52,055 nt of DNA from a virus, in IMG/VR virus record IMGVR_UViG_3300038660_000110, positions 1-52,055 of that record. One strand, given 5' to 3'. Position numbers and translations under genes: made by a program. The notes below the pieces were generated by a model. That model saw only the letters and a list, made by a program, of their open reading frames with translations. It ran no database searches and was not told the origin of the DNA. Shown piece by piece: positions 14,801-45,590 of this stretch (positions are counted from its first letter, which is position 1; each line of letters opens with the position of its first letter).

Positions 14801-17800
14801 ACGTCCTCGTTGTTGTCGTAGGTGACAGGATCCAGCAGCTTGCGCTGGTTTTTGGCCGGGTTGTTGGTCAATCCCCAGCGATCCAGGTCCAGCGGGCTTA
14901 CCGCCCACTGTTTGCTGCCTTTCGGGCGCTGAGCCCAGGGCATGCTTTGCTGGCCTTCGCCCGCCAGGATATCGTTCACTTCCGACTCGGACAGGATCCG
15001 GTTCACTTTCATGGATCCGGAGATAATCCAGCGCCCGGTCATGTTCGCGTTTGTCTTGTAGCGATACATGCCGTTTTCTGGCATTTCCTCGATATCGGCC
15101 TCGGCCTCGTTGAATCCGCCTTTTTCGGTGCGCCCGTTCTCGTCGGCCTCGCCCTGGTAGTCCACGTCTGCCGCCATTTCGACTTCAGCCCATACCTCGT
15201 CCTCTTTACGGGCAAAGACTTTACCGCTGGGATCCTTGGCGCCGATGTGGGTCGCCAGGGGAATATCCCCGGCATGCCAGCCTGGACGATAGGCCAGGTG
15301 TCCGATCTTCGACTGCACCTTGCGCTTGCCGGTCTTGGACGGCTCGGCCTCCAGGCCTTCCAGCGCGTTAAGCCAAACGTCTTGTGGCAGCGCATCGTTG
15401 GCACCAACGTACAGCGGGAACACTTCGCCACTGGCTGAGCGCTTCACGCGGAACAGCTTGTACGCTTTCTGAGTTTTCTTCGGTGGCGCGTCCCGGCGAA
15501 CTTCGTAAGCGGTGACGCCCTCCTCCTCAATAACGGGTATGCCAGCCTGACGGGCAGCGTCGGCTACCATCTTTTCAGCCAGCTCCATATTGCCGGAATC
15601 AACGGCGTTCATGTATTGCTGATCGGCGTCGGTGGTCGCAAAGCGGGTGCCCTCGCCGCCGGTTGCCTTGCGTCTGCGTAAATACTGGCGGCTCTGCTCG
15701 CCCAGGGCCAGCACGTCGCTGTAAGTCCAGGCAATGGACGGGATCATTTTGCGCAAAAGCTCGCGGATCTTGGCAACGACTCGCTGCCAGGCCTTGGGCC
15801 GGTGCCCTTTTTCCAGCAGGTGCGCGACCATTTCCTCGGCAATCTGGATACGGTCTTCACGCTTGCTGGTGTCCAGGAATCGATACTCTGCTTTGACCTC
15901 GGCCAGGGCAGCGCGCCCCTGGGGGGTGTTTGGCAGTGTCCGGTACAGGCGAAGCATTGCGCTATCGAGCTCGGCGCCCAACACGCCCCTTACGCCCTTG
16001 TGTCCCACTGCTTCATGGACGGCAACCTCAATACCTTCCTGGGTACTGCGTAGGTTATCGGCCACCACAAAGAGCTCGCCATCCACATAGAGCCCGCGCA
16101 CGGATGATTCGTCTACGCCCAGCGATTTCATTTCAGCTTTTGCGGTAGCAGGCAGATCGCCGGGAGATTGAATCACGCGGGCGCCAGCGAGCTCGGCCAC
16201 GTTGGCCAGGCCTTTGCTGATATCGGCGGCTAGAACGTCTCTTGAGGGTGCCGGGGCAGAATTGAGGCTGAACCGTGTCTTGCTTTCGGTCGGGATCGCC
16301 TGCTCAGGCTGGAACGGAATGTAGTGCAACTGACCGCCAATGCTGCGGTAGTCCACCACAATGCCGTCGTAGCCTTTAGCCTTAATGGCGTTGCGGTATC
16401 GGGTTGCTTCGGCTGTGGAATTGAAACTGGGTAGATCCCCGCCATCGATGACGTAGGGCTTGCGCATATCCAGAACGAAAGTTTCAACGTCGCCGTAACC
16501 GGCGGCTTCGCGCTTCCTGGAACTGAAGAACACGCCCAGGCCGGACGATGGGCGCCCGGTGGATACGCCAAAACTGGACTCATTAAAGTCGTCAGGCTTT
16601 AGCCCGCCGGTTCGGGATCCTCGGAAGATGACCGCCGGTTCAGATCCGCTATCGCTTCGTCGACGGATTTTCGTTTTGGACTCGTAATCGGCAGCAGCGT
16701 TCCGTCCTCCAACAGCTCGTCCATTGTTTTCCCGCCCACTCTCGCGTTGTCCGGACTGATTCTGTCTTGCAGCTTGGTATTCTTCGAAGATTCTCTGCGC
16801 TTCTGCTTCATTGGTGTCTTCCTCCACTTCCACCTGGGGGAGAGGCGGCTGTCCGTCCTCCCGACTAAACGATTCTACTTGGCTCTGGCTGGTGGTGCCA
16901 CCACGGATATCAGCGCTGAAATCACGGCGAGGGGCCTGGCGCCCGCGCTTGAAAGCGTCCGATATCGTAGTGATACGCTCACGCAGCTCAGCGGTACCAA
17001 TGCCCTGATCCACCCATCCCGCTTTAACCAGCAGTCGCTTGATCCCGCGCCATAGCTTGCGCCAGCCTTTTTTCATCCAGCTCGGCTGCTCTTGCGCCAG
17101 GGATCCCAGCATTTCTTCAGCGTAAAGACGGTTTGCCTGCTCGTCGTTGAGCCCGGCAGACTCGGCCACGGCCTGATATTCCTTTACCGTCTTGTCCCAA
17201 AGCGCTTTTACTTCCTGGCTTTCGCCCGCCGCCGTCTGAATGTCGCGGTATAGCTGCTCGCGATCCTGTGGCGAAAAGAAGCCAAGGCCTTTGTGAACCA
17301 AGATTTCCTCTTGTAGGGCCTTGAGAACGTCGCTTTCATTGGTGAAGGCTGCAGATACAAGATGCACGGTATCGGTTCGGCTGACATATTCTCCGGCGAT
17401 ACTGGCGCCGGCACTGTCTCGGTCTGCTTTGAATCCGGGTAAAGCGGTTGCACTTTGATGTATTTCGACTGTGACATTATCCGCACCAGGATAGGTTTTA
17501 AGGAACCGATCCACTGTAGCCTGCACCTGGGGCTCAGACAATCCGGTACCGGTGGCGCCCTGGTTGCGCAAGAAAGCAGGCGCATCGCCGGATCCCTTTG
17601 CGGGGCTGTCGTCAAAGCTCTCAACCGCCTCGGCCTCTTTCTTGCCGCCAGCGGCTACCCATTGCTTGCGCATCGAGGGCAGCGCGTTCAGCTGCACCAG
17701 GTCAGACAATGCTTCAGTCACGGCGCTCAGGCGATTGGGCTCAAACGTCGCGGTCATGGTCTTGCCGGATCCAAAGAACTCCATGCCCATGGCAGAGATC

Positions 17801-20800
17801 AGCGGCTGACTGAACTTAACGCGCCTGGCCAGCTCCTCCTTATTGGCCTTGGGCACGGTGATGGTCCACTTGCCGTCGGTCTTCGGAAGCATCCGCACAA
17901 TCTGGTTCTTATCGAACACGCCGCCCGCCCGGCGCAATGCGTCGGTGTTGTTGCGCAGAAACTTTGACAGCGGTGCTTTATCGCGCAAAGCCATGTACTG
18001 GCCACTACCTGCATCCTCAAACGAGGAATCTTTGAACCAACGAGGCAGCATCATGCCCTGGTAGGTGTTGCCGTCCTGGGACGTGAACGAAACGATCCGC
18101 CCGGGGATCGATCTATCAGCGGATGCCGCGATCAAATTGCCGGTGGCTATGAAGCGCTGCTCGCGCATCTCGCCGCCCAGGTCACCCTGGCCTTTGAATA
18201 TGTCGTCCAGCGGTGCCTTGGTGCTCAGCTTCTGAATGAAGATACCGGACGATGGGCGCAGCTTGCTCAAAGGCAGCTCGATGTTGCGGATGCCGCTATT
18301 GACCATGAACGATACGCGGGTCTTTGACAGCGCATAGGCGTCTCCGCCCTTGCCTTTCAGGTTGGTCTTGATACCGGTAACCACGCCGGTAACAACTTCA
18401 TCGCTCAGATCCAGCATGACGTGATCGCCGATCTTGAACGTGCTTTCCAGGGCCTCGTTGGTGCGCTTGCGGGTGTCGTCCAGTCGCGCCTGGGTCAGCT
18501 TGGCCTTGGATACCGCGCTCTGATAATTGCCCTCCAGATCCAGGTACTTCTTGCTCAGTTCTGAATCGTCGCGCAGCTTCGACTGCTCTAGGATCTCGGC
18601 GGGCTCCCCACCTTCTAGCCCGTCCTCTTTCGCCGCTTTTTGGATGGCCGCCTCAGTAGCGTCGACTCGCTCCAATGCGCGCTCGATGGTAGCGCTACGC
18701 CCGGGATGGTCGGCCAGGTCAAGGATCAGCTCGTCGGCAATCTGTTTCGGGGTCTTTCCACCTTTGAGGGTTTCATCCAGTGCGCTCTGCACGTCTTTGC
18801 CCGTCGGCGGCTTGCCCTGATACTTGGCGTCGACCTTGTGCAGCGTCGTGTTACCGCCAAACAGTGACGTGGGATCCTTGCCCTCGTAAACCACTTTTGA
18901 GGCCATGATTCGCGCATCCAGATCAACCGTCTGCGGGTCCAGGTCGTTTTGTCCGGTCTTGGTCAGGTATTCAATGAGCTGTGAAAAGGCCGATTCAATT
19001 TCTTCGTAGGCCAGCTTTTGCGTCTCAACCGGGGTGCGCGCCAGGCGCCCGGTAAACTTCATGGCCAGGCCTTCGGTGGGTCTTGACTCTGCCTCGCCAT
19101 CAGGGCTTGCCGTAAATCCCAGGTCTAGCTCAGTCGCCAGCTCCGGATTGGCAGACAGATACTCGGCCACTACCTGGTCACCGTACTTGTTCAGGATATC
19201 CGGCGCTTCCACGCTGGTATCGGACTTGTCGTTGGCGCTGGTGTTGGCGTTCAACGATTTCATTTTCTTGGACGTGACAGCCAGCGGGCGCTTTTCTGAC
19301 GGAATGTTGAGTCCCATCATAGTGAACTCAGGCTTTACCACCTGCCCGGTACGGTTAATCCGGCCCAGCATCTGCATCAGAATGTTAATGTCTTTCGGCG
19401 CTTGGGCAACGATCATGTGCCTTGGCTTTTGATCTTTGAAATTCTCGGAAGCATGAATCGAAAGGCCAGTGGATCCGGACACGTTCAGAACCAGCGCATC
19501 CAGGCGCCCGGTATTGAACGCATCTACGGTGGCGCGCTTGTCGGTGCGCTCAGTCGGATCGCGCTTGGCCAGGGTCGGCGGATTTGTGCTGTAGTCCAGC
19601 GTCATGTTTCGCCCGGTGATCTCGGACGGCTTCATGCCTGCCTGGGTCATGCGATAGCGCATCAGGTCGATCGGCGACATAGGGATATCGGCAATATCCA
19701 GCTGCTTTATGACCTTTTGCGCTTCCTGGTACGCTTCGCGTGTCGCGGGATCCAGTTCGCTCAGAGATACTTGAACCGCTTCCTTGTCGCCGTTGGGCAG
19801 CTCTCGCGAATATCGGCGGCTGCGCTCCAGGGCGCGAAGCAGCACGTCGTTATAATTTGCCTCAACCGGATCGCCAACTTGAATCCCCATATCGTTGACG
19901 TATTCAGATAGGAACGACTCCATGGTGTTTTCAAGCGCAATAACCGGCTTGACGCCTTTTCTGTGCAGCTCAATCGCCTGGCTGGCTGATCGCTCTACTT
20001 TCAGCCCCAGCAGCAGCTGGCCTATGTAGTTGTGAATAACCGACGAGAAATTCATGTGGTCGACGTTGCCCGCTCGGTTACCGGCGCCCTTTGCACCGCC
20101 TCCGCCTTCCTCCGCCGCTTCTTTAATACCCTCCATGGCCACGTTGTGAAACATCTTGTCGGCGCGATTGATCGCTGACAGCCCTTCCGCCACCTGGTCA
20201 GACAGCTTTTCATGCGCTGCCGTGTTGTCAGTGTCGATGGACGTTGTGATTTTAATGCCCTCGAAACTGCGCTCACGACGGAACAACTGCCCGGCCCGGG
20301 CCAGCATGTTGGAGATCACCGCTTGCAGCTGCAGGCCGCCCTGCGATACCGCCTCGGCCAGCTGGTCGATTTCGTCGACGGCCTTGGACAGATCGGTACG
20401 GTAGTACAGCGGCATGTTGTCCGGGCGCTTGGCATAGGTCGCAGAAAGGTAGGCCACTGGCTTTTCGTTAATCAGGGAGAACATGAAACCGGCACCGGTT
20501 AGCTTCTCGCCGCCGCCTTTGGACGCGGGTATTGATGTTGATCGATTGCCGGAGACGTTGTGCGCTTCATCGAGAACAAAGATCGCGTTCTCGGCCATCT
20601 TGCTCATAACCTGGCGCTGCAGGTTGTCGGTCTGGATCTGCGAGTAGGTCAGGAACAGGGTGTCAGCATCGCCGGGCATCTTCCCGGTTGCGGCCATGGC
20701 CTGCAGCTGGGATTTGTGTCGCTTGCCACCTTCCGATTTGTAGACCTCGCGTTCTTTGTAGGTGATTCGCTCGGCAGAGTTGACGATGAACGGCTTCACG

Positions 20801-23800
20801 TCAAAATCGCCGATATCCTGCAGATCCCCGTACATATCGCTGAACAGGTTGGGGGTGACCGACATAAACACAGGGGTCTTGCCTACCCGGCGGGCATAGC
20901 GAATAATCGCCGCTGCCTGGCGCCCTTTGCCCACGCCGGTCTGGTCGGCAATGATGATGCCCTTGTTGTTCTCGATGTTGTAGATCGCCGCCGCAACCGC
21001 GTCCACTTGCAGCCCCATAAACGACTCGTGCATTTCAGCCACGGTGTCGTAACCCAGCTTTTCCTGAACATAGGTGTCCAGGTCGCCTACTTCGTTTTCC
21101 AGATCCGTCAGGGCCTGCTCAAGCGGTAGGGCCATGTTATTCGGAGTCAATACCGCGTCGTTCTTGCCTTTGCTCTTGGCGTTGTAAGGTGTCTGAAATT
21201 CGGACTTGCTTAGTTTTCCAGGCTTGCCCGCTGTAGATTGCCCACCCAATCCACCAGTGTCTGTTGTTCCAGTGACTCCAGGGCCTTGGGTGTTGTTACC
21301 GGCTTGCTGCTCAGATCCGACTCCGATATCAGCAGGCTCAGATTGTCCGCCAGTAACGCCGCCTCGGCCATCGGTCGAATCCCCGTCACCGGTCCTATCG
21401 CGGTCGCCAGGTCTGGATCCATTATCAGGATCGAGCGCGCCTCCTCGTCCGTCATTTCCTCGTCCGTCGCCATCCGAACGATTTTGTTCGCCAATGACAG
21501 CTTCAGTAGGAACCGGTCCATCCGTTGCGTCGGGCTTGTCGGTACCGCCAGTATCTTCTGTGCGGCTTCCGTCAGATTGCTGGGCAGCCAGACCGCGTTC
21601 GTATTGCGCATACACTTCACTCCAGTTATTGGCTCGCTCGATCACGCCTGACTTGGGTGATACTCGGTTGCTGGCCTGTCTTCCTTTGATCGTAATGACA
21701 CGCACCGGCCATCCGGCGCCCTGTCGGTTGTAAAGATCCCCGTCTACCTCAAAGTGACTGGTTACATTGTAGTTGCGATAAAGCCAGTTAAAGAACGTCC
21801 GATCCGCTGCGGCTATATCGCCTGCCAGCTTGCTGGCGCCAATAATCATGGTTGCCTGGCCGTCGTCCTGCATCGCTTCCAGCGCTTTCGCTGCGATCAG
21901 GTGATCGATCGCCTTGATCGTATAGCCGTCGATCTTTACAGGTTGCGGCTTTCCGGCCTCGTCTTTCAATCGCCCGAAAGGGGGGTTCATTATTACAGAG
22001 TCAACTTGATCCGCTGGGATGAACGTCGTCGCGTCCTCCTGGGATACCTCGATCCCCTGGGCTTCCAGCAATTCAGCGCGCTCTGCATCGAGCTCATTGG
22101 CCACGATGTTGTCAGCGGGCGCACCGATCAGCAGCATGCCGTTACCGGCGGTTGGCTCATAGACGGTCGTGGCTTCGGTAATGCCGGACAGACGGGACGC
22201 CAGGAAGGCCAGGGGCGCGGGTGTGCTGTAGGCCTGGCGCTGCATGCTGCCAGAACTGCGCACGTTCAGATTCGGCTGGGCCGCGTACATGGCTTGCAGC
22301 TCGTCAAAGACAGCCCGATCCGTGCGGGTCGAATCGCGCTGAACGATATCCCGGGCTCGGGTAACCAATGCCAGCTCAAGCGCTTCCTGCGCCTGCTTCA
22401 TCTGTTGGTCGGTCACTTCTTTGGCCGAAACGTCGAAGTGCTCAGCAATGACGGCTTTCAGCTTGCGGTTGTCGGTGATCTCGTCCAGGCGATCGTATAG
22501 CTTGCGGGCCAGGGTGCCCGGCTTGGGCGCATAGTCTGATTCGGGGTTGGTCGCTGGGGCGCTATCGGGCTCTGCATTGTCAGTGGTCTTTACCTGCTCT
22601 GACTGCAGCTCCTCAACAAAGCGCATGACATACGGCTTTGATCCCAGTCCCAGGTACGACACGATCTTGCGGATAAAGGCGCGAAGGTCATCGCCAGCGG
22701 CCCGGGAGTCTTCCAGCATCTTCTTAAAGTGCGGTTTGGCGCGGGCGTAGGTGTCTTCGTCAAACTGCAGGCCAGAGCCTAACCGGCCAGGGCCACCGAA
22801 CAGGTTCTCCAGGGCCTTGAGCGATTCCACGCCAGCGCTGGTCAGGTTGCTGCCGAAACTCTTGGCAATTTCTGCCGCGCTGCGCTCCTGCGGGAGAATG
22901 TCCGGATAATCGTCGTTCAAGTACGGCAGGCGGGCGTTCATTTCCATGCCTGCAGCTTGGAGTCGGCGCATTGCCTGGTCAGGATTCTCGATCTTGATTA
23001 CCTTTTGGCCCGCCTCCGGCTTCGTCAGCGGTGCGCTCGGGCTCACCTGGCCACCATCGCCACCATCGAACTCTGGTTTAAAGTTGACGATCTTACCGTC
23101 TACCCACGCATTGATCGCGTCGACGTTGCCTTGGTTGAATCCGTACAGGTAAAAACTGTTGTTATCGCCTAACCAGCCAACGCTGCGCGCATTGTCCCAT
23201 CCAATCTCAGGCAATGACTTGATCGTAAAGCCTTCGCCTTTCTTGCCGTAAATGTAGTGCGTGTTCTGCAGATTCCAGCGCTTTAGCTGGTCGGCAGCGC
23301 CGGACTTTGTTCTAAAGCTCTGGCCGTTGGCGCGGGTCAACTGCCCACTGTTGCGGTTTTTCTGGATGGTGGCGCGCTGGCGCTTCTCCCGGTCCTGGGC
23401 TTTTTGCTCGTCGGTCTTCTCGGCCCTGGGCGTGTTGGTGGCGTCATTGGGGGTCTTGGTCGTCGGCTCGGTACCGGGCTCGGGCTCGCTTACGGGCTCG
23501 CTTGGCTTTTCGTCGGACACTACATCATCAAACAGGGAGCTCAGATCCTCGCTGCTGATGTTGCTGATCTCGTCGTCCAGGTTCTTCGGTTTTGCCTCGC
23601 CCTCTGCACTGGCCGAATCGTAGCCTTCCAGCCAGGCCACAGATTGCTCACCGGTCAGGTAGCTGGGCGCGATCCGGCGCATGCCTTTCTGGCCGCTCAT
23701 TTTGCCGACTTGCCGGATGCCGCTCAGACCAGACGTTTCCGGTTGCTGGTCTGGCTCGTCCGGTACCGACGTAGGATCCGGGTCTGCGGCTTCGTTGTCT

Positions 23801-26800
23801 TTGATCCGGCGCTGGGCAATTTTGGCGCGGTTCATCATTCTGGACGTGTAATCGTCAGTGATGCCGGATGGCAGCGGCTGGTCTTCTTTTTCCAGCGCAA
23901 TCTGCTGATTTACCTGCTTGACTGTCTCAGCCTCATTGATCGCCTCAACACGCCTGAAGAACCGGCGCTTGCGACTGATCTGATCCTCGTTCCTCGATCC
24001 GCTAACCTTGGTTTCCAGGCGCCCAACAAGCTCCTCGGCGCGACCATCGGACAGTGTAAAGTTCTGCAGGATCTCGTCGTACAGCTCGTTATTGGCAAGC
24101 TCGTAGTCTTGCTTTCGACGGATCTGGCGGGCGTAGTCCTCAAACACGGCCTCCGGATCTGCTTCAGCGGGCTCGTCCCGGATCGGGCGGTTATCGGCTG
24201 CATCCACTTCATCGAACGTCGGCACGTCGTCGCGCTTGCCGCCTACAAAGTCCTGAACCGGGCTGGTACTCTCTGGCACGTTCTCGCCGGGGATGATCTC
24301 CACCAGGTCGGTAGAGATATCGCCGCCGCGTCCGGTGCTCATAAACTGGCTGAACAATTCCTCCATGGCCGCCTGGCTGTCCAGTGCAGGCACGACCAGG
24401 TGCCCGGCTGCTTTGCCGCCAAGGCCTGAGTACAGTTTTACAACGGCCTGGCTTCCGCCATCTTTGGCGAGCTCAACGGCTTTCTTGCGCGCTTCGCCCT
24501 CGCCTCGGCGATCGGGACCATACATGGGCGACTTCGTTGGGCCGGATGCAAAAGACGGGCGCTCTCTGACTTCGGCCTCCTGGTCGTCAGCATAGGCGCT
24601 TAGCTGACGCGACGGCGCTGCGGTACCGTACAGATCCCGCGCATCGGAGTTGAGCGTCGTATTGTCCGGGCGATCGATAACGGGGGGCTCGTCAAACATA
24701 TTGCCCTGGCCAGCGGCTTCGGCCTGGTCTGTCGGGCTGTCCGATCCGGTCAGGTTGAAATCGTTCACCTGCTCGTCGGCGCGGATCCGGTCGTCTTCTT
24801 TCTTGCGAGCGTCGGCCTGGGCTTTCTCGGCCTGCTGGCGCACACGATCGCGCCGGGAAAGATCCCCTTCAGTTTGAGATTCAAGCTCAAGGCCAGGCTC
24901 TGACTGAGGGGCTTCAATGCCTGCAAAGGCTTCCAATTTCCGCTGAATAGCCCGCAGCTCCGGCTCAGAATCGCCTGCTTTGTCCCACTCGTTCAGGGTT
25001 TCGGCTGCTTCGCGGGTAATGGCGTCAAGGTTGCTGCCATCCTCCACGGCCTCGGTGATTCGATCAGCCAGGTCAATCGCCTGCTTCCGGATACTATCGG
25101 GCAACTGACCATCGTTCATGCTGTCGGTGCCCAGCTCCAGCGCATCGCGCAAGATCGTCAGCGAAGCCTCCGCTTCACCCATTCCTGCAATATTGGCCTT
25201 CGTCTGCTGAATAGGGTCCGATTCTTCAACCAGGTCTAGGCTGGGCGCTACCTCTTCTGTTGCGCCTTCAAGTTCTCTGACTTGATCTGATCCATCGGCG
25301 TCTGCTTCAGGTACTGGTTCACCTGCTCCCGGGTCCACCCCTTCGCTAACAGGCGGTTGTTCGCTTGGTGAATCGGCAGGTCGCGGGCTGCTTTGTCCAT
25401 TGACTCTCGGCTGATCTTGCCCTGCTTCATAGCTTTGTAGCTCCTTTTTCAGGTCGCGCACAACGGGCGCTTTCTTTTCGCCATCGGCCACACGGCGAGC
25501 GGCACGGTTGACCATCTCGCTCAGTGTGGGGTTGGTGGATACGCGGTTAATCATATCCAGCGCTTTGGCGCTTTCGTCGGTAATGTCCTGGTTGGCTTCG
25601 GTGGCAATCGAGTTGCCCGCCTCGCCTGCCCGCCCGGCGTTCTTGTTCAGGCTGGCAAACAGGTTCTTATCAAACGTCAGATCCTGCCTCAACGAATTTA
25701 GCACGGACAGGCGGCTTTGCAGCAGGCTGATCTCCTCGGGATCGTCGCCAAACAATCCGCCCTGATCGCCCTGGCTTTGAGCAAAACCGGCGGCTTTGAT
25801 CTCGTTCACCATCAGCTGTCGTTCAAAGCCAGACTTCGGCGCGCCGTTCTGAAAGGCCTTTGCCGCCGCTTCTTGCTCGCCTGAATCGCTGAAGTTGGCA
25901 CCAATGGCAGCACCGTCTTTCTCGCTCAGCTGGCCCGCTGCGACCATGCCGAAAGCGTTGTCTGAAAGGTTGGCCAGCGCTTCGCCGTCCCGAACTACCT
26001 GGTTGTCCGGCAGATTGTTCTGCTTGCGGATCTCGGCATTCGGCAGATCAATGTCGCGAAACACCTTTGCCGCGTCCAGGGGCTCGGCCTTGCCGTCTGC
26101 GATATTGTTCATTGCCGCTTCTGCTCGTGCGGCTGGTACATCGAAACCTTGTGATTCTTCCAGAATGCGAGCGTTGACCGCTGGCTGTCCCAGTCGCTTC
26201 GCCAGATCAAGGCGGTGGTGCCCGTCGGCTATAAACAGGGATCCATCGTTGCGACGGTGAACAATAAGGTCACCCGCCTTGTTTTCGTCCCACTTCTCAA
26301 CGGCATTGAGGCGTCGGTCTACACCTTTCTTGTCCACTTTGGTGCGGAACTGGTATTGCTCCGGATCCACCTGGATCTGGTCAGTAGGCACACGGAAAAC
26401 GCCGGTGCCCTCCTCGGTCATATCAGACTGCGGGCGCTGGCTTTGGCGGTTGGCTGCATCGAGCTCGGCCAGGGCTTGCTCAGTGGACACGCTGCCAAGC
26501 TGCTCGTCGGTCATGCCGTAGTCGCGCAGCTGATTGCGCTGGAACGGGCTAAGGTCGTCGGCAGCAAAGCCGGTGGTACCGTCTTGAGTAGGCGAGGCTC
26601 CGCGTGGCCCACGATCAAGAACAGGCACGCCATCGGCAGGCGGGGGCGGAAGATCAGGAAAGTCATCGACCATCGGCTGGCCACGGTCGGGTCCACGCTG
26701 AATAACTGGTACGCCCTCGGCAGGTGGTGCGGGAGGGCCGGTGGTGCCGTCTTCGTTGACCGGTGGTTGACCGGTGGTTGACTGGCCTGCATCGGCTGCC

Positions 26801-28053
26801 GACTGCTCGTCGTCAAAGGGGCCGTCTTCAAACAGGGGCTGGCCTCGGTCTGATTCGCGCAGTCCGGGCGGCAAGGCGTCCTCGAAAGGTCCGTCATCGA
26901 ACAGGGGCGCGTCAGGTGTGGCATCATCTGGGTCAAAGGGGCCGTCTTCAAACAGCGGACCTTCGCGCTCGGCCTCTTGCGCTGCGCGAAGCTGGTCCAG
27001 TGCGTCCCCACCATCTGATTCAGACTGGCGGCGAGCCGCCTCGATGCGCTCCACTTGAGTCTGAGCCCGGTTGCGCTCGGTAACGCCGGCAATTGGCCCA
27101 AGGCCAGCGCCCATCAAACCGCCGGCCGCCATCTCGTCAATAATATGTTTGTAATTCACCTCGCCCAAGTTCTGGAGCAGCGATTCGCCGTTGGTTTCGA
27201 CCCAGTAGTTGGCATGCTGACCAATAAGCCCCTGCAGGCCTTCGGTGCTGGACTCAACAATGAGCCCGGTTAGCGAGCCTCTTCCTGCCGCTCGGCCCCT
27301 GCTTCGGCCTGCCGTTCTTGTGAGATCGTTCAGTACCCTGCCACTGATCTCGCTTGTGGCCCGGTCGGCCACGTCACCCGCACCCATCTTGCGCAACAAC
27401 AGGAACGGCGTCAGGGCGTCCATCGCGCCCGCGAGAGAGCCGTGAGCCAGGGACACATCGAGCTCTTCCGTCTGGCCCATGATTAAGCCGGTTTCCATGC
27501 CCGCCGACGCCGCATAGGCGCCAAGGCCTTGCCCGGCTTTGATTGCGGTTTGCTTGGCCACTGACCCAGCCAGTAACCGTCCTGCAACGCCACCAATACC
27601 GCCGCCTGCAATGGATACCGCCAACGTGGGCGCAAGGTTACCCGCCGTGTATCGCGCCCAATTAAAGGCTTCCATTGGCCCGGTGATGTCTGTAAAGCCA
27701 TAGCCCAGTGAGTTCTCGCCGGCCTCTTCCATGTTGCGCTGGTACATATCTTTGCCAGCATCCCACACGGTATCGCTTCCAAGCGCATCGCCTGCCGCCT
27801 GGAGTAAGCCGCCGCCCATGGCCTGCACCTGATCGACACCTGCCGATAGTCCGCCCATAAAGCCGGGAGATCCCCCTTCTTCAGTCGCAGATTTGCCGCC
27901 AGGCCCGCCATAATTACCGGTGACATAGCGCTCAAACTGAGAGTCGGAAAAGGTGGAAAACTCGGGTGATTTGCGGATAAGAGACTTTATGTCGTCGTCG
28001 GAGCTGTCACGCAGGTTGGGGTTTTTCTGGCGAAGAGTGTTCAGTATGGACAT
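11836..28053 (-). CDS. Giant polyvalent virion protein: ParB, methyltransferase, helicase, ART and zincin modules
   Basis: The product has 5405 residues; the ATG at 28053 has GGGAG ten bases upstream. Visible order: Gly/Ala-rich hydrophobic N-terminus (about 60-330); acidic PLFEDGPFD repeats (365-415); ParB-like domain (550-660, ADGHHRLDLAKRLG); long charged linkers; N6-adenine methyltransferase (about 1900-2100, EPTAGNGMLL and NPPFG); strawberry-notch SF2 helicase (about 2280-2960, QTGVGKGRQ, LDEAHN, LSATYA, GRINRTGQ) with its C-terminal extension; degenerate zincin (about 3582, EEILVHKG); ADP-ribosyltransferase-like domain (3810-3920); intact zincin (about 4013, HEAVGHKG); and a C-terminal LPD38-like region (about 4880-5200). 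Methylase plus helicase resembles P1 DarB, and Bcep22-type podophages carry a comparable giant protein. It is probably injected with DNA and counters restriction. Confidence 0.9.
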   Translation of the reverse strand: MSILNTLRQKNPNLRDSSDDDIKSLIRKSPEFSTFSDSQFERYVTGNYGGPGGKSATEEGGSPGFMGGLSAGVDQVQAMGGGLLQAAGDALGSDTVWDAGKDMYQRNMEEAGENSLGYGFTDITGPMEAFNWARYTAGNLAPTLAVSIAGGGIGGVAGRLLAGSVAKQTAIKAGQGLGAYAASAGMETGLIMGQTEELDVSLAHGSLAGAMDALTPFLLLRKMGAGDVADRATSEISGRVLNDLTRTAGRSRGRAAGRGSLTGLIVESSTEGLQGLIGQHANYWVETNGESLLQNLGEVNYKHIIDEMAAGGLMGAGLGPIAGVTERNRAQTQVERIEAARRQSESDGGDALDQLRAAQEAEREGPLFEDGPFDPDDATPDAPLFDDGPFEDALPPGLRESDRGQPLFEDGPFDDEQSAADAGQSTTGQPPVNEDGTTGPPAPPAEGVPVIQRGPDRGQPMVDDFPDLPPPPADGVPVLDRGPRGASPTQDGTTGFAADDLSPFQRNQLRDYGMTDEQLGSVSTEQALAELDAANRQSQRPQSDMTEEGTGVFRVPTDQIQVDPEQYQFRTKVDKKGVDRRLNAVEKWDENKAGDLIVHRRNDGSLFIADGHHRLDLAKRLGQPAVNARILEESQGFDVPAARAEAAMNNIADGKAEPLDAAKVFRDIDLPNAEIRKQNNLPDNQVVRDGEALANLSDNAFGMVAAGQLSEKDGAAIGANFSDSGEQEAAAKAFQNGAPKSGFERQLMVNEIKAAGFAQSQGDQGGLFGDDPEEISLLQSRLSVLNSLRQDLTFDKNLFASLNKNAGRAGEAGNSIATEANQDITDESAKALDMINRVSTNPTLSEMVNRAARRVADGEKKAPVVRDLKKELQSYEAGQDQPRVNGQSSPRPADSPSEQPPVSEGVDPGAGEPVPEADADGSDQVRELEGATEEVAPSLDLVEESDPIQQTKANIAGMGEAEASLTILRDALELGTDSMNDGQLPDSIRKQAIDLADRITEAVEDGSNLDAITREAAETLNEWDKAGDSEPELRAIQRKLEAFAGIEAPQSEPGLELESQTEGDLSRRDRVRQQAEKAQADARKKEDDRIRADEQVNDFNLTGSDSPTDQAEAAGQGNMFDEPPVIDRPDNTTLNSDARDLYGTAAPSRQLSAYADDQEAEVRERPSFASGPTKSPMYGPDRRGEGEARKKAVELAKDGGSQAVVKLYSGLGGKAAGHLVVPALDSQAAMEELFSQFMSTGRGGDISTDLVEIIPGENVPESTSPVQDFVGGKRDDVPTFDEVDAADNRPIRDEPAEADPEAVFEDYARQIRRKQDYELANNELYDEILQNFTLSDGRAEELVGRLETKVSGSRNEDQISRKRRFFRRVEAINEAETVKQVNQQIALEKEDQPLPSGITDDYTSRMMNRAKIAQRRIKDNEAADPDPTSVPDEPDQQPETSGLSGIRQVGKMSGQKGMRRIAPSYLTGEQSVAWLEGYDSASAEGEAKPKNLDDEISNISSEDLSSLFDDVVSDEKPSEPVSEPEPGTEPTTKTPNDATNTPRAEKTDEQKAQDREKRQRATIQKNRNSGQLTRANGQSFRTKSGAADQLKRWNLQNTHYIYGKKGEGFTIKSLPEIGWDNARSVGWLGDNNSFYLYGFNQGNVDAINAWVDGKIVNFKPEFDGGDGGQVSPSAPLTKPEAGQKVIKIENPDQAMRRLQAAGMEMNARLPYLNDDYPDILPQERSAAEIAKSFGSNLTSAGVESLKALENLFGGPGRLGSGLQFDEDTYARAKPHFKKMLEDSRAAGDDLRAFIRKIVSYLGLGSKPYVMRFVEELQSEQVKTTDNAEPDSAPATNPESDYAPKPGTLARKLYDRLDEITDNRKLKAVIAEHFDVSAKEVTDQQMKQAQEALELALVTRARDIVQRDSTRTDRAVFDELQAMYAAQPNLNVRSSGSMQRQAYSTPAPLAFLASRLSGITEATTVYEPTAGNGMLLIGAPADNIVANELDAERAELLEAQGIEVSQEDATTFIPADQVDSVIMNPPFGRLKDEAGKPQPVKIDGYTIKAIDHLIAAKALEAMQDDGQATMIIGASKLAGDIAAADRTFFNWLYRNYNVTSHFEVDGDLYNRQGAGWPVRVITIKGRQASNRVSPKSGVIERANNWSEVYAQYERGLAAQQSDGSRTEDTGGTDKPDATDGPVPTEAVIGEQNRSDGDGRGNDGRGGALDPDNGSRPGDRDRTGDGDSTDGRGGVTGGQSEPADIGVGSEQQAGNNTQGPGVTGTTDTGGLGGQSTAGKPGKLSKSEFQTPYNAKSKGKNDAVLTPNNMALPLEQALTDLENEVGDLDTYVQEKLGYDTVAEMHESFMGLQVDAVAAAIYNIENNKGIIIADQTGVGKGRQAAAIIRYARRVGKTPVFMSVTPNLFSDMYGDLQDIGDFDVKPFIVNSAERITYKEREVYKSEGGKRHKSQLQAMAATGKMPGDADTLFLTYSQIQTDNLQRQVMSKMAENAIFVLDEAHNVSGNRSTSIPASKGGGEKLTGAGFMFSLINEKPVAYLSATYAKRPDNMPLYYRTDLSKAVDEIDQLAEAVSQGGLQLQAVISNMLARAGQLFRRERSFEGIKITTSIDTDNTAAHEKLSDQVAEGLSAINRADKMFHNVAMEGIKEAAEEGGGGAKGAGNRAGNVDHMNFSSVIHNYIGQLLLGLKVERSASQAIELHRKGVKPVIALENTMESFLSEYVNDMGIQVGDPVEANYNDVLLRALERSRRYSRELPNGDKEAVQVSLSELDPATREAYQEAQKVIKQLDIADIPMSPIDLMRYRMTQAGMKPSEITGRNMTLDYSTNPPTLAKRDPTERTDKRATVDAFNTGRLDALVLNVSGSTGLSIHASENFKDQKPRHMIVAQAPKDINILMQMLGRINRTGQVVKPEFTMMGLNIPSEKRPLAVTSKKMKSLNANTSANDKSDTSVEAPDILNKYGDQVVAEYLSANPELATELDLGFTASPDGEAESRPTEGLAMKFTGRLARTPVETQKLAYEEIESAFSQLIEYLTKTGQNDLDPQTVDLDARIMASKVVYEGKDPTSLFGGNTTLHKVDAKYQGKPPTGKDVQSALDETLKGGKTPKQIADELILDLADHPGRSATIERALERVDATEAAIQKAAKEDGLEGGEPAEILEQSKLRDDSELSKKYLDLEGNYQSAVSKAKLTQARLDDTRKRTNEALESTFKIGDHVMLDLSDEVVTGVVTGIKTNLKGKGGDAYALSKTRVSFMVNSGIRNIELPLSKLRPSSGIFIQKLSTKAPLDDIFKGQGDLGGEMREQRFIATGNLIAASADRSIPGRIVSFTSQDGNTYQGMMLPRWFKDSSFEDAGSGQYMALRDKAPLSKFLRNNTDALRRAGGVFDKNQIVRMLPKTDGKWTITVPKANKEELARRVKFSQPLISAMGMEFFGSGKTMTATFEPNRLSAVTEALSDLVQLNALPSMRKQWVAAGGKKEAEAVESFDDSPAKGSGDAPAFLRNQGATGTGLSEPQVQATVDRFLKTYPGADNVTVEIHQSATALPGFKADRDSAGASIAGEYVSRTDTVHLVSAAFTNESDVLKALQEEILVHKGLGFFSPQDREQLYRDIQTAAGESQEVKALWDKTVKEYQAVAESAGLNDEQANRLYAEEMLGSLAQEQPSWMKKGWRKLWRGIKRLLVKAGWVDQGIGTAELRERITTISDAFKRGRQAPRRDFSADIRGGTTSQSQVESFSREDGQPPLPQVEVEEDTNEAEAQRIFEEYQAARQNQSGQRESGRENNGRAVGGRNAAADYESKTKIRRRSDSGSEPAVIFRGSRTGGLKPDDFNESSFGVSTGRPSSGLGVFFSSRKREAAGYGDVETFVLDMRKPYVIDGGDLPSFNSTAEATRYRNAIKAKGYDGIVVDYRSIGGQLHYIPFQPEQAIPTESKTRFSLNSAPAPSRDVLAADISKGLANVAELAGARVIQSPGDLPATAKAEMKSLGVDESSVRGLYVDGELFVVADNLRSTQEGIEVAVHEAVGHKGVRGVLGAELDSAMLRLYRTLPNTPQGRAALAEVKAEYRFLDTSKREDRIQIAEEMVAHLLEKGHRPKAWQRVVAKIRELLRKMIPSIAWTYSDVLALGEQSRQYLRRRKATGGEGTRFATTDADQQYMNAVDSGNMELAEKMVADAARQAGIPVIEEEGVTAYEVRRDAPPKKTQKAYKLFRVKRSASGEVFPLYVGANDALPQDVWLNALEGLEAEPSKTGKRKVQSKIGHLAYRPGWHAGDIPLATHIGAKDPSGKVFARKEDEVWAEVEMAADVDYQGEADENGRTEKGGFNEAEADIEEMPENGMYRYKTNANMTGRWIISGSMKVNRILSESEVNDILAGEGQQSMPWAQRPKGSKQWAVSPLDLDRWGLTNNPAKNQRKLLDPVTYDNNEDVIPLSERFNQATTDVRFSLVSNDRISGGNLFDDFTDADRAAAAKQGPRSAPRRVMDYWKEATNNAGLKIRQGMVDRLASLKAIDEKLLGEKMLGEDITRSSWVLGRMANAANGALHTMLHTGRIKMDAKQKVIDIQEGDSKGLGAVFAQLASQNDPDSASKEVQRFMGWIAGNRARKLLDEGRENLFTEEDITAMESWDRGVLADGRNRAEAYASVFQEFQAYRDDVLAIADQAGLLRKAMDPDDATLFMANKHGIRSDLADKAKAARKAAARADDIDVKEMAEERESAAIGELQQELVAELGMADYDSEYDMLTTDQRDLWANEFYVPFYRIAEDDNKPTGQLATSGLSRQKAYTRLKGGSQNVNDLLENTMMNFHHLLDASLKNQAAKQAIDNAMDLGIATPVKASNRNEKTSTFVLIDGEKSFYQIDDPLVFESITALSSAGMNNMAMKVMRGFKRLFTNMTTTTPQFMVANLIRDSLQATATNDVSKNAFANVIGGARSYRDQKIKAQMMASGASFNFGHLFGSNPDELRAQLTRDMRGAKLIDGPQGVPDALRKSWEWWNNVNNATENLNRAAIFTQNQDKGKLKAAFESRDLMDFSAHGAWSAIRILIDVVPFLNARIQGLDKIYRSGFKPGYNVLKSVFGGDDANVSDKQSAGRFWAVTGALAMATMMLYLHNQDDEEYQKLEDWQKDTYWFFRIGDQAFFIPKPFEVGAIATMVERITQQFVDDKATGKLFRERMQHMLTDTFAITIVPQAMQPALDVYANYDAFTQRPIESMGMDRLSPELRKRASTSKAGEWISQGLNATVGALGDPELNPLALSPVQVDHLISGYFGQVGTWAASSGDIAWRVASGHEDPARRWYEYQPVRRFYKNLGDEDRYTKYGTVFYEGLREAGRAYADVKELRELGRLEEAAKAVQDNRQMLMIRRSLNRAQSKLRDINKQIDVIRRADMDGELKRQKLDRLRAIKNKIQKVMSTRVMEARG

Positions 28054-28129
28054 TGGGCGTTGTCTCCCGACAAGCAAAGGTAAAGATGAATCGCATTACG
28101 CGAGGTTCAGCGAGTGCATATCCATCCAC

Positions 28130-40984: not shown

Positions 40985-41206
40985 TCAGTAATCGGTGTTC
41001 GGCAATTTGTCCGGCTCCGGGCTTATCTCAGTCTCCGGTTCTTCTTTGGAGTAAGCGATAAGGTCGTCAACCAGCTCGATCTTCCCTCGCAACTTGTCGT
41101 CGTTGCGTGTTCCGTTGATCAGGGAAGACAGGCAATCGCTGCGGATAACTTGCAATCGCAGCTCAATGGCGCGCCAGGTGTCGGAGTGTCGATCGATCTT
41201 ATCCAT
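40985..41206 (-). CDS. Small hypothetical protein after portal
   Basis: The product has about 73 residues, starting MDKIDRHSDTWRAIELRLQV, helical with an acidic C-terminus (KEEPETEISPEPDK). ATG 41206 overlaps the portal stop; a TTG three codons earlier is too close to AGGGA. No family recognised. Confidence 0.55.
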   Translation of the reverse strand: MDKIDRHSDTWRAIELRLQVIRSDCLSSLINGTRNDDKLRGKIELVDDLIAYSKEEPETEISPEPDKLPNTDY

Positions 41207-43460
41207 AGCTGTCAAATCCCTGGCTCATGTTCTCGCGTCGCGCGGCTCGCTCGTTCTGGCTGTCGGCAAGCTCCGCAGCCTTGGCGTCTCGCTGGGTGGC
41301 CAGGCTGGCAGCGGTTTCCTGCATCTTGGCCTCCAGGCTCTGCGAGTGCATTCCGATCTTGGCCTCAAGCTGTGCCATGGTGATCCCTTCCTTGTAGGCC
41401 AACTCCATCCGGTCCTTTTCCTGGCGGGTCTGCAGCTCGGCGGCCTTGTACTGCTGCTCCCACTGCTGCTGCTGGGCCTTCATCTTCAGCTCTTGCTCTC
41501 GCAGCTGCAGCTCCTTCATCTTGATCTGGCCCTCTGGCGGCGGCCCTTCCTGCTCGTTCTCGGACTTCTGTTCAAGCTCGTCGTCGGTGTAGGCCACGCT
41601 TTCGACGGGAATCTGAAGGGTGCGCAAGATCTCTCGGTACAGGCCGCTCCACTTGGTCATCTTGGCGAATAACGGGTTGTTGGCGGCGACCTGGGACAGC
41701 ATCATCAGCTTTTCCTGCTGCTCCTCGCGGGCAACCAGGACCGACGTACCTTTCGCTACGATATCGAAATCACCCTTAATTTCCGGGCGATCGGTATACA
41801 TCATGTGGTAGTCGTAGAAGCGCTTTACCGTGGGAGTGGTCACGCCGTCGTCAAAGTTCTTGGTCGCGGATCGCAGCACGATGTTTGAGTTGTTCATCAG
41901 CATCTGCATGCCGCCAAAAGTCTTGGATCCGGCGCCCTGGCTCAGGCCCTCGCCCTGCAGAAGGATCGGCAAGTTCGTCTCTGTGTCGGCCAGCTTCTGC
42001 GCAGACTCAAAGATAGCGAACAGATCCCGCTGGTTGTTGTTGATCTGATACACCTGGAATGCGCTGCCTACTGGCTCGTCTCCGGTATCCCACCAGATCT
42101 TGTTGGGCCTAAGCGTCCAGTCGCCGTCCTGGGGCTCAACACCACGCTTTTTCATCACGATCTGCGGTCCAGCAGATACACCGGCGTTGTCCATGATCAT
42201 GCGCCATGAAGCGTTGACAACCTTTTGAGGCTGGCGCATCAGATACGGGATGCCGAAACCAAATATGCTGCTGTCGTCCGATTCCCAGTTGAAAACGCTG
42301 TACGGAAGATCTCCGGTTTCTAGCGGGTTTAGCGCGGCTTTGATAACGTAACCGCCGACCATGAGCACACAGCCGGTGTATTCCACCAGCGGATCTTCGT
42401 CTATGTCTTCGCAGCCACAGGCCTTTAGTTCTTCCTTGTCCAGCGGGCCCCAGTATTCCCACAACTCGTACTTCTTATCTTTGGTCACGGTGTCCACGCC
42501 GGTGATGGCGCGCAGCTCTGAGCGACGGTCCTCGGCAATTTGCCTGCCTTCGTTGTTTTCCAGGGACTCGCGCAGCTGGTTCAGCATGACGCCAGGTAGA
42601 TCGGCCAGATCTCGCATCTGCTTGCGGTTAAGCAGCTTGCGCTCAAACCAAAATTCAGCCTCGGCGGCGTTGGCCGCTGACATATCCGGGAAGATATCCC
42701 AGGGATCCACACGCTCAAGACCAGCGCGCAGCTCCTGCTTCACTTCCATGGTGCTCTGGCCCGTCTGAGGATCAGTGATCCACGCTCGTCGGGTGCGGTT
42801 TACAACGGTCGGGCCCTTGAGCACACCGGTGCCCAGCTTGCAGGCGTCTTCTATTACGTCCCGGGTATGCGCGTTATAGCCTGCTTCAGCAAAATCATCC
42901 TCGATCTGCTGCTGCATGGCCCGGGCAGCGTCGTCGGCCTGCTCTTTTGCCTGGTCCTGGGGATCTTTCGGCGCGGGCTGGTCAGGGTCAGGCGCCATGC
43001 TCTGCCCCATGCCTTGCATCATGCCCTGCCCCATATCTGGCGCTTGGCCTTGCATCATGCCCTGCTGAATGTCGGCCTGCATCGGGTCGCCATCGGTGGC
43101 GCTCATAGCCGGGATCGGCGTCGACTTAACGCCAAAATTCGTATCATCGTTGGGCAGCAGCATATCGCTCATGCGAGCAATTCCGGCCCGGGTCTTGTTC
43201 CTGGTGATGTTGACGAATACTTGAGATGAACTCTTAGCGACCATCCTGCTAATTTCATCCACGTTGTACTCGCCTTGGTACTGTCGCAAGTCAGCCAGCC
43301 AGCGGGTTTCGATCTGCGCTCTAGCTGACACCTGCTCCTGGGCCAGGCGATCCAGCTTAGTGCCCAAGGAGTTCAAGTCTTCCTCGCGTCGACTCTGAGC
43401 TGACTCCATTTCCTCCTGCGTCATTTCCTCGGCCTCGTCGGGTATCTGCTGGTCTCTCAT
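41199..43460 (-). CDS. Portal protein
   Basis: The product has 753 residues. The N-terminal helices (RDQQIPDEAEEMTQEEMES), a Met/Gln-rich insert at about 125-175, the central stem region (ERVDPWDIFPD; WMI-type strand MIMDNAGVSAGPQIVMKK; FGGMQMLMNNSN), and a long Gln/Glu-rich C-terminal coiled coil (about 625-720) fit podophage portals, which carry an extended barrel at the C-terminus. It follows the terminase genes by one base. Twelve copies form the DNA gate. Confidence 0.85.
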   Translation of the reverse strand: MRDQQIPDEAEEMTQEEMESAQSRREEDLNSLGTKLDRLAQEQVSARAQIETRWLADLRQYQGEYNVDEISRMVAKSSSQVFVNITRNKTRAGIARMSDMLLPNDDTNFGVKSTPIPAMSATDGDPMQADIQQGMMQGQAPDMGQGMMQGMGQSMAPDPDQPAPKDPQDQAKEQADDAARAMQQQIEDDFAEAGYNAHTRDVIEDACKLGTGVLKGPTVVNRTRRAWITDPQTGQSTMEVKQELRAGLERVDPWDIFPDMSAANAAEAEFWFERKLLNRKQMRDLADLPGVMLNQLRESLENNEGRQIAEDRRSELRAITGVDTVTKDKKYELWEYWGPLDKEELKACGCEDIDEDPLVEYTGCVLMVGGYVIKAALNPLETGDLPYSVFNWESDDSSIFGFGIPYLMRQPQKVVNASWRMIMDNAGVSAGPQIVMKKRGVEPQDGDWTLRPNKIWWDTGDEPVGSAFQVYQINNNQRDLFAIFESAQKLADTETNLPILLQGEGLSQGAGSKTFGGMQMLMNNSNIVLRSATKNFDDGVTTPTVKRFYDYHMMYTDRPEIKGDFDIVAKGTSVLVAREEQQEKLMMLSQVAANNPLFAKMTKWSGLYREILRTLQIPVESVAYTDDELEQKSENEQEGPPPEGQIKMKELQLREQELKMKAQQQQWEQQYKAAELQTRQEKDRMELAYKEGITMAQLEAKIGMHSQSLEAKMQETAASLATQRDAKAAELADSQNERAARRENMSQGFDSYG

Positions 43461-43461
43461 A

Positions 43462-44184
43462 TCAATATCCTGCCGTCAGGTCGCCGGGTTGGTTGCTGGC
43501 TGCAGCTCGCTGCATGGGCTTCGTGCTGGCCAGCTCAAGGCGCATAACCGCGTATCTCAGTGCGTCCATAAGATGGTCGTTTTCTTTCACAATCCGGCCC
43601 TTCTCGTCCCGCCGGTATAAGCGGATCTCGCCAAGTGTGTTTTGCAGGGTGTTGAATATCTTCAGACGGCCCGTTGATAGGCGGTCCATAACTTCCATAA
43701 GCCCCGCTTCGACGGCCTTATTGGCCTTGTTCAGGATCAGCCGTTCTTCTAAGTACAGCTTCCAGAGCGTTTTGCCATCGACCTGGGAGCGGCCCCGGGC
43801 AGCTGTGTCGATAACTCCGGGAATCCATTCGCCCCGTAGACGGATACCTTTGGCATGAATCGGCGCTTCAGCCTGTCCTCGGTAGTGCTCGGAGTAGGCA
43901 TAGGCAATGTCCGTATCTCGATCCACGGCCAGCCAGATCGCGGCGGTCTTTTTCCAGCCAACGTCCAGCCCATAGATCCGGTGGTACCAGCCTGGAATCT
44001 GGAAAGGCTCACAAAGAAAATCATCTTCCGGGATCGGATAGATCGCGCCAGCGCCCAGGCTCGGCTTGCCATACCGGCGGGCATCGAGCTGGTGAGGGCT
44101 TAGCGACTTCGACATATCATCTATATCCTGCTGAGAAATGTGCGGGACGTTTGCCCAGCCCGCCTGCACGACGTATCGGCTCAT
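43462..44184 (-). CDS. terL: Terminase large subunit, nuclease half (split TerL)
   Basis: The product has 240 residues: the RNase H-like nuclease domain of TerL as a separate polypeptide. Acidic residues are visible in YGLDVGWKKTAAIW, VIDTAARGRSQVDG and NDHLMDALRYAVM. The start MSRYVVQAGWANVPHISQQD matches the region that normally follows the ATPase domain without a break. The ATG overlaps the preceding stop as ATGA and has no Shine-Dalgarno, so it depends on coupled translation. With the ATPase half it sums to 478 residues, a normal TerL length. Confidence 0.88.
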   Translation of the reverse strand: MSRYVVQAGWANVPHISQQDIDDMSKSLSPHQLDARRYGKPSLGAGAIYPIPEDDFLCEPFQIPGWYHRIYGLDVGWKKTAAIWLAVDRDTDIAYAYSEHYRGQAEAPIHAKGIRLRGEWIPGVIDTAARGRSQVDGKTLWKLYLEERLILNKANKAVEAGLMEVMDRLSTGRLKIFNTLQNTLGEIRLYRRDEKGRIVKENDHLMDALRYAVMRLELASTKPMQRAAASNQPGDLTAGY

Positions 44185-44381
44185 TCAACAACGGTGAGCG
44201 TTGCCGGGCCTACGGTCATTAGCTGGCCTGGCCGTGCCTTCGGATAAAGCTGCCGGGCAATCTTCTTGCTGATGGTCCCTCTTAGGATCCCTTTCTCGGT
44301 CAGCTGCCTCACCAGGTTGTCGCGCACCACTGGGTTACAGGTTTTCGTCGAGGCGTTGATCTGCGTAATAGTTCTGCTCAC
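44181..44381 (-). CDS. 66-residue protein inserted between TerL halves
   Basis: The product has 66 residues, basic (QINASTKTCNPVVRDNLVRQ; GTISKKIARQLYPKARPGQL; MTVGPATLTVVE). No family recognised and no homing-endonuclease motif seen. The GTG start overlaps the ATPase-half stop as GTGA, and its own stop overlaps the nuclease-half ATG as ATGA. A helix followed by a beta end suggests a small adaptor that could bridge the halves, or a DNA-binding peptide. It reads in a frame different from both halves. Confidence 0.7.
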   Translation of the reverse strand: MSRTITQINASTKTCNPVVRDNLVRQLTEKGILRGTISKKIARQLYPKARPGQLMTVGPATLTVVE

Positions 44382-45094
44382 ATTGGTACCTGCTCGCTCC
44401 TGACTTTTAAGAAATCGACGACCAAAGGCGTCAGTCCTGACAGGGGTGTAAAGGTCATAGCGACCAGGCCCCGGGTTGTCATGGTTCGTATCAGGGCTTC
44501 GTCGTAAACGGCCTTCGGCACTTCTTCATCGAGCCAGACGTAATCCTGTTCGGTGCCCTGGAAGATCTTTCGGCCTTGCTCGTAGCTGCGAAGCATCAGA
44601 TGACTGGTGCCGCCGCTGCAGTGTTTTACCGTGATCTCCTCGTAAAGATTGGCTACGCCTCGCGCCGGTATGGGCTTGCCGAGAAGATCGCCAGGCAAAA
44701 GTCCGGTACCAAACTCCGGCGTTCCCCACAGCCCACCAAGCAGCTTGTTCTGGATAATGTCGCGGGTGGTGGTGCTGGTGTCGCCTGCCGCAAGGCACTG
44801 AACCGGACGATAGAATCGGTGCCCCTCCCACCAGGGCGGATACTCGCCCGTCATGTGGTAGGTCAGTTCGGTGCCTCCGGCTACGGTCTTACCCACGCGG
44901 TTTGCGGCCATAAACAAGCGCTCGCGGTGCAGGGATCCCGCACGGAAAAACTCCATGTGCTTCGGGTAGAGCTCGCGCCGGTAGGGCCCAGTCTCCGGAA
45001 ACAGCTGCTTGATCAGGTTGTAGCGCTTTCGCCTGGCCTGCTCTTTTAACCTCCGGTGTAGCTCCAGCTTCGCTGCTGCGTTATCACTGCCCAT
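44378..45094 (-). CDS. terL: Terminase large subunit, ATPase half (split TerL)
   Basis: The product has 238 residues. Walker A is FMAANRVGKTVAGG (about 62-75), Walker B is DYVWLDEEVP (about 189-198), and the coupling motif is MTFTPLSG (about 220-227). The product stops at SEQVPM just after the coupling motif, where other TerL proteins continue into the nuclease. It powers DNA translocation into the prohead. It overlaps TerS by 11 bases. Confidence 0.88.
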   Translation of the reverse strand: MGSDNAAAKLELHRRLKEQARRKRYNLIKQLFPETGPYRRELYPKHMEFFRAGSLHRERLFMAANRVGKTVAGGTELTYHMTGEYPPWWEGHRFYRPVQCLAAGDTSTTTRDIIQNKLLGGLWGTPEFGTGLLPGDLLGKPIPARGVANLYEEITVKHCSGGTSHLMLRSYEQGRKIFQGTEQDYVWLDEEVPKAVYDEALIRTMTTRGLVAMTFTPLSGLTPLVVDFLKVRSEQVPM

Positions 45095-45590
45095 TCCCTA
45101 CCTGCTTCTGCAGCTCGCGGATCTCGGCGTCCAGCTGCTCGTCAGACAGGTTCTTAGGACTCATGGAACCGTCCTCACTGGAGTGATCCACTTTGTCCGT
45201 AAACAGCTTCAGGTGCTTGCCCAGCAGTTCGTAGCCTTTGAACACGTTCGTCGCGTCGTACTTGTAAGCGGGGACCAGCTGGCCGTCTTCCGTCTCAACG
45301 TAAACCGGTGCGCCCTCTCGATCTGTCACGGCCTCGGCTTGCTCGCAGCGCTTAATGTTCTTCGCGATACCGTGCAGCACAAAGTCAGCATCGATCTGTG
45401 TGCGCTGGGCGCGGTCGTTCATCCGCTCCTGTATGGCTTCTTGAATGTTTACTTTCGTTAATAGCTGGGCGGCTTTGCTTGCAGCAGTCTTTGCGCTGTA
45501 TCCGGCCCTGATTGCTGCCTGCCTTCCGTTCAGATCGACAAGGTACTCGTCAACGAATCGGCTTTGCTGTGCGGTTAGTGGCTTGCTCAT
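45084..45590 (-). CDS. terS: Terminase small subunit
   Basis: The product has 168 residues. The N-terminus (LTAQQSRFVDEYLVDLNGRQ, then AAIRAGYSAKTAASKAAQLL) is the helix-turn-helix of the Terminase_2 family. The rest is helical for oligomerisation, with an acidic C-terminus. It recognises the packaging site, for which a repeat lies immediately upstream. The ATG has no nearby Shine-Dalgarno; AAGGAGG lies 26 bases away, before a six-codon TTG minicistron whose stop overlaps the ATG as ATGA. Confidence 0.88.
   Translation of the reverse strand: MSKPLTAQQSRFVDEYLVDLNGRQAAIRAGYSAKTAASKAAQLLTKVNIQEAIQERMNDRAQRTQIDADFVLHGIAKNIKRCEQAEAVTDREGAPVYVETEDGQLVPAYKYDATNVFKGYELLGKHLKLFTDKVDHSSEDGSMSPKNLSDEQLDAEIRELQKQVGNGQ

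Follow-up and report, generated by a model that had tools for sequence, protein, structure and literature searches.

Organization of the terminase locus

The DNA analysed here, referred to as the window, is the IMG/VR virus contig IMGVR_UViG_3300038660_000110, taken over its whole length of 52,055 bp. On its minus strand, the terminase small subunit gene (TerS) is followed by a gene for the ATPase half of the terminase large subunit (TerL), a 66-codon gene, a gene for the TerL nuclease half and the portal gene. The features are:

45084..45590, minus strand: terminase small subunit gene, 168 aa (Pfam Terminase_2, 8.6e-29; phrog_51, 1.8e-38)
44378..45094, minus strand: TerL ATPase half, stand-alone gene, 238 aa (Pfam Terminase_6N, 9.6e-17; phrog_31467, 1.4e-67)
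44378..44381, minus strand: GTGA overlap of the ATPase stop and the small-gene start (from the sequence)
44181..44381, minus strand: 66-codon gene with a GTG start, between the halves (36 distinct homologues; dN/dS mostly 0.12-0.28)
44181..44184, minus strand: ATGA overlap of the small-gene stop and the nuclease start (from the sequence)
43462..44184, minus strand: TerL nuclease half (RNase H-like), stand-alone gene, 240 aa (Terminase_6C, 9e-10; phrog_5653, 2.7e-26)
41199..43460, minus strand: portal (head-tail adaptor) gene, directly downstream of the nuclease gene (phrog_332, 2.2e-34; phrog_1216, 8.9e-13)

The TerS gene and the start of the ATPase gene overlap by 11 nt, and the ATPase, small and nuclease genes are read in three different frames. 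A sequence-only reading of the window had proposed a TerL split into this overlapping three-gene array; the sequence, the motifs and the relatives described below all bear it out. Since the 3' end of the small gene overlaps the nuclease start, before which inspection of the sequence revealed no clear ribosome-binding site, translation of the nuclease half is probably coupled to that of the small gene, whose reading would set the amount of nuclease half made. The identifiable head genes of the window (portal and major capsid protein) are intact.

Both halves have kept their catalytic motifs. The ATPase half carries Walker A (NRVGKT), Walker B (DYVWLDEE, at residue 184) and the coupling motif (TFTPLSG, 214-220), as expected of the N-terminal domain of a Terminase_6 protein, and the nuclease half carries the acidic motifs of the C-terminal RNase H-like domain (GLDVGW at 72, DTAARGRS at 126 and ENDHLMDALRY at 201). 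The third feature of that family, a hinge joining the two domains in one polypeptide, is lacking in the window and its split relatives, where the halves have separate frames, starts and stops. The sequence-only reading had the ATPase half ending right after the coupling motif; the border is correctly located, but 18 residues follow the motif. It was right that nothing is lost: the halves sum to 478 aa, the size of fused homologues (480 aa in EBPR podovirus 1, 474 aa in phage CV-1-33). The 261 positions of phrog_31467 span the TerL ATPase half only and the family is labelled 'unknown function'; it is probably an unannotated packaging gene family.

Elsewhere in the window, a single ORF of 5413 codons (28077..11836, minus strand) occupies about a third of the record. 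Homologues, 53-60% identical across the first 350 residues, stand at the same position after the tail genes in Kushneria, Halomonas and Chromohalobacter prophages.

Recurrence of the split among relatives

Relatives were collected by scanning viral contigs with each protein and species genomes with the nuclease half, and loci with both halves were taken. Clustering at 95% left 86 TerLs, 56 split and 30 fused, a ratio biased by the use of split halves as queries and not to be read as a frequency. Among the split ones, 25 have the small gene, 24 have no insert and 7 have other inserts. When the 56 split rows are compared with fused relatives, the break always falls in the interdomain linker: in fused proteins a stretch of 3-16 residues links '...TPLSGLTxLVxxFL' to 'RYVVxAGWDDVPHL', and in its place split ones carry a stop and a start codon. 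These scans, the kind of check suggested at the outset, recovered the three-gene order in many independent contigs and in isolate genomes. Changes between the fused and split states number at least 8 on a quick tree and 7 on a reduced one, counts that are silent as to direction (splitting or refusion), and the AU test rejects a tree in which all split rows are forced into a single clade (p = 2.4e-6).

Sequencing or assembly frameshifts, or a decaying prophage terminase, might give a similar picture, and a few contigs (L024, L033 and L034) do have frameshifts in these genes. Nevertheless, the arrangement is shared by many contigs and isolate genomes, dN/dS is low in all the genes and the motifs are intact. 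A one-off assembly frameshift is excluded because a second contig, L002, carries an ATPase gene identical to that of the window in the same arrangement. Assembly error is thus contradicted by the relatives, and we consider artefact or decay extremely improbable. In three isolate prophages the head modules around the split are complete and syntenic, and prophages that carry the split may nonetheless be defective.

A scan with the L043 nuclease brought out a second TerL group, in which L043 itself is counted. Its ATPase and nuclease genes are separated by 1.2-5.5 kb containing other genes, some of them tail-like (L186, L193, L195, L198, L200, L205, L211 and L236); many of the loci in our collection are metagenome contigs, in which chimeric assembly could mimic some gene separation or reassortment.

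The split was not found in any cultured lytic phage; MW202785, the sole GenBank phage entry that shows it, was assembled from environmental sequence. StenR_269 (Stenotrophomonas), like the remaining GenBank relatives that were checked, encodes TerL in one fused gene. In the open-licence literature we found no earlier report of a terL divided between its two domains into separate genes without splicing. The two annotated terminase genes of Escherichia coli phage HC-25922 were considered as a case of the same split and rejected, since the break lies inside the nuclease domain.

The 66-codon gene and its product

The small-protein family comprises 36 distinct sequences, mostly of 62-101 aa, with identities to the window's member down to about 21%. 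It was found in a single clade, that of the window, mostly (pro)phages of Halomonadaceae, which comprises 25 clustered rows and includes isolate genomes of Halomonas sp. McH1-25, Litchfieldella xinjiangensis and Chromohalobacter canadensis. Because the small gene has dN/dS values of 0.12-0.28 in the majority of pairs (0.03-0.12 for the halves, likewise in most pairs), the sequence comparisons indicate a protein under purifying selection, in agreement with the initial view that a complete gene lies between the halves. The exceptions are the most closely related pairs, namely the window and L003 (0.92, on very few changes) and L025/L027 (0.31), and one saturated pair.

This family is previously undescribed. 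No significant relative of the small protein was found in Pfam, PHROGs, NCBIfam, PDB sequences or Foldseek searches of the PDB and viral structures, nor did Pfam, PHROG and further homology searches give any endonuclease match. The best matches, RickCE (0.04) and MazE7 (0.036), were taken as chance, as was a Roseobacter CRP-13 match of P0002 inside terL (E=3). An AlphaFold2 model built with 29 homologues has a modest pLDDT of 80 and a helix-strand-helix-hairpin fold; it led to no identification.

It could be supposed that a full-length TerL is still produced by frameshifting, ribosome bypassing or splicing of the insert. The halves do sum to a normal TerL, and intron splicing had been raised from the start as something to check. 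This is very improbable, however. Insert lengths, 196-1555 nt within the clade and as much as 5.5 kb outside it, fall into every reading frame; the insert itself is conserved coding sequence with a start codon of its own; and the two halves are each complete with start and stop codons. In the window, a programmed frameshift would have to span a 196-nt gap filled with a coding gene. The initial impression that no intein or homing-endonuclease intron is visible was confirmed: group I/II intron RNA structures gave no Rfam match at gathering thresholds, and the insert is out of frame, with no Intein_splicing match in P0002 (the positive control, L015, matches at 1.5e-11).

The small protein was initially thought of as a tether holding the halves together or as a new subunit of the packaging motor. 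A dedicated third subunit, bridging the halves in place of the missing hinge in this clade, would account for the presence of the small gene in nearly all clade members, always within the terminase operon and under purifying selection, and for its staying beside the TerL halves while other genes at the junction change. Several relatives argue against it. The Kushneria aurantia prophage (L162) belongs to the same clade and its halves are 68-69% identical to those of the window, but they are joined by ATGA with no insert, and no member of the small family was found in the whole Kushneria aurantia genome. At its junction, CAGGAGCCGGTATGAGCCGC, one ATGA holds both the ATPase stop and the nuclease start, and a ribosome site is present; in such empty relatives the ATGA starts the nuclease gene directly (GTATGAGCCGC, L162). 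The portal, scaffold, capsid and following genes of this prophage keep the gene order of the window. L036 is likewise split without insert, and many other split lineages show no sign of the small gene. In L097 a gene of the family lies upstream of the ATPase gene, outside the junction. Moreover, L006, L007 and L010 have a truncated, decaying duplicate of the small gene beside an intact copy, and, judged by dN/dS, the small gene changes at about twice the rate of the halves or faster. A bridging role thus seems doubtful. The simplest reading of the gene content in Kushneria is that the small gene was lost there, because Kushneria groups with small-gene carriers on the tree. On these comparisons, the split neither depends on the 66-aa protein as a tether nor was caused by it; the protein may be an accessory, either a modulator of packaging or one unrelated to it.

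Contents of the junction

In most cases the small gene immediately precedes the nuclease gene, and varied genes are found between the small gene and the ATPase gene. Examples of this cargo are an 80-aa phrog_1048 protein, an 81-aa phrog_419 protein and a phrog_5086 gene. For the 80-aa protein (L014, L023, L034 and L085) a Tad2-like identity was considered; Pfam and NCBIfam did not uphold it, and only phrog_1048, of unknown function, was matched. In L101 two other ORFs separate the small gene from the nuclease gene. Endonuclease genes are also present: an HNH gene following the small gene in L164 (3.6e-7), an endonuclease VII-type gene in L098 (7.6e-23) and an HNH-like gene in L065, while the junction of L157 (MW202785) holds a 46-aa remnant of a phrog_99 HNH endonuclease. 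The small-gene duplicates represent turnover within the junction. Taken together with the bare ATGA-joined splits (L162 from Kushneria aurantia, L036, L052, L064 and L111), these contents are best read as marking the TerL junction as a tolerated site of gene insertion and exchange.

Mobile elements and possible reassortment

The split could go back to the insertion of a homing endonuclease gene into terL, with that gene later lost from the window and the small gene a subsequent occupant. The HNH genes in L164, L098 and L065 and the remnant in L157, all at this same junction, point in that direction, and precedents have been reviewed, such as mobE splitting nrdA in phage Aeh1 (PMC2988022). However, the window has no endonuclease, many splits are bare ATGA overlaps, and L164 and L098 carry their HNH genes in addition to the small gene, perhaps as later arrivals. 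We put this origin at somewhat less than an even chance. It concerns only how the split arose and can be true alongside a terminase that works as two chains.

Close relatives also carry inteins, or what look like them, and these too speak for an endonuclease origin. In-frame inserts of ~310 residues lie inside both active-site motifs of split TerLs, after 'AANR' of Walker A and inside 'ENDH' of the nuclease. The 'ENDH' insert of L015 (nuclease half at L015:5920-7605) matches Pfam Intein_splicing (1.5e-11), and further inserts at this site occur in L014, L023, L034 and L035. Those in Walker A of the ATPase half (L038:3855-5522 and L100:767-2410, also L098 and L035) have no significant Pfam match and look like inteins by their placement and splice-like ends. 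The TerL of this group is under repeated attack by mobile elements, which fits, without proving, an endonuclease origin of some of the splits. A further insert, of 736 nt, interrupts the major capsid gene of the Kushneria aurantia prophage (L270:7347-8082); it holds a LAGLIDADG-like ORF of 165 aa, the motif being read by eye, and gave no Rfam intron match.

The halves of some close pairs differ widely in dS, one half being shared and the other not, the ATPase value being 0.04 and the nuclease value 1.28 for L007/L008, 1.60 and 0.07 for L007/L024, and 0.17 and 1.28 for L002/L003. Fused TerLs used as controls, mostly from one group, show no such discordance. This is suggestive only of reassortment of ATPase and nuclease halves between phages, the contigs being metagenomic and the controls mostly of one group.

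A probable two-chain terminase

The explanation that we consider quite likely, judging from gene content and conservation, is a natural two-chain large terminase assembled non-covalently, with the junction as an insertion site and the small protein as an accessory. Overlapping genes with coupled translation would yield the ATPase motor and the headful nuclease as separate chains; the two chains would then meet at the portal and package DNA, the motor being re-formed without covalent link or hinge. In the window's clade the junction would have gained a small conserved accessory gene, and in relatives also cargo genes and homing endonucleases. The steps that the sequences support are the two intact catalytic halves, the linker split, its recurrence in several lineages, the empty and occupied junctions and the distant halves. 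A motor of three proteins, in which separate ATPase and nuclease subunits are coupled by a dedicated small protein and the modules are exchanged between phages, is unlikely.

The main counter-evidence is that T4 gp17 split at the linker retains ATPase and nuclease activity while DNA translocation is abolished (PMC3012670, PMC9958956). A precedent for function in pieces is provided by Aeh1 NrdA and 43A/43B, which are active as two polypeptides (PMC2988022). Thus, the split of TerL is real and recurrent, its interesting part is the possible natural two-chain motor, and a tethering role of the small peptide is unlikely.

Comparison with known systems

T4 gp17 has the same two domains as the window's TerL, in the same order and with the same motifs (Pfam Terminase_6N and 6C). 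In the leading T4 model, the ATPase domain drives the nuclease domain through a covalent hinge, reported to be essential for translocation within a single chain (PMC9958956, PMC3012670), whereas the window encodes the domains in two genes, as two chains. Should natural terminases of this kind prove to package DNA, non-covalent coupling would be enough and the hinge no universal requirement; these phages make the one-chain requirement derived from T4 testable.

Other terL genes come in pieces for different reasons. The terL of Jug phages also reads as 2-3 fragments, owing to group I introns whose splicing was observed in RNA reads (PMC12363816); no intron was detected in the window, where the two halves are each delimited by start and stop codons of their own. 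Intein-containing TerLs, with insertions at Walker A and the nuclease active site, are found among close relatives, whereas the window's insert is out of frame and without a splicing domain. MW202785.1 (Podoviridae sp. ct2G2228) also has two adjacent genes, both annotated 'large terminase protein', but what lies between them is the HNH remnant and not a member of the 66-aa family. A terL that is an exchangeable two-gene module matters for terL-based phage taxonomy and for annotation, the latter because the ATPase half falls in a family of 'unknown function'.

Parallels are offered by Aeh1 NrdA/mobE, Aeromonas 43A/43B and T4 topoisomerase gene 60, where an essential phage enzyme likewise consists of two polypeptides whose coding sequences are separated by a gene or spacer (PMC2988022). 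As in Aeh1 nrdA, a gene that is intact in relatives is divided into two ORFs; the endonuclease gene expected at the split site is absent from the window and present in L164, L098 and L065. Those cases are replication enzymes interrupted by a homing endonuclease or an untranslated spacer (PMC2988022), whereas here the enzyme is a packaging motor and the intervening gene encodes no endonuclease. Unlike them, the linker split of TerL has been repeated independently at one site.
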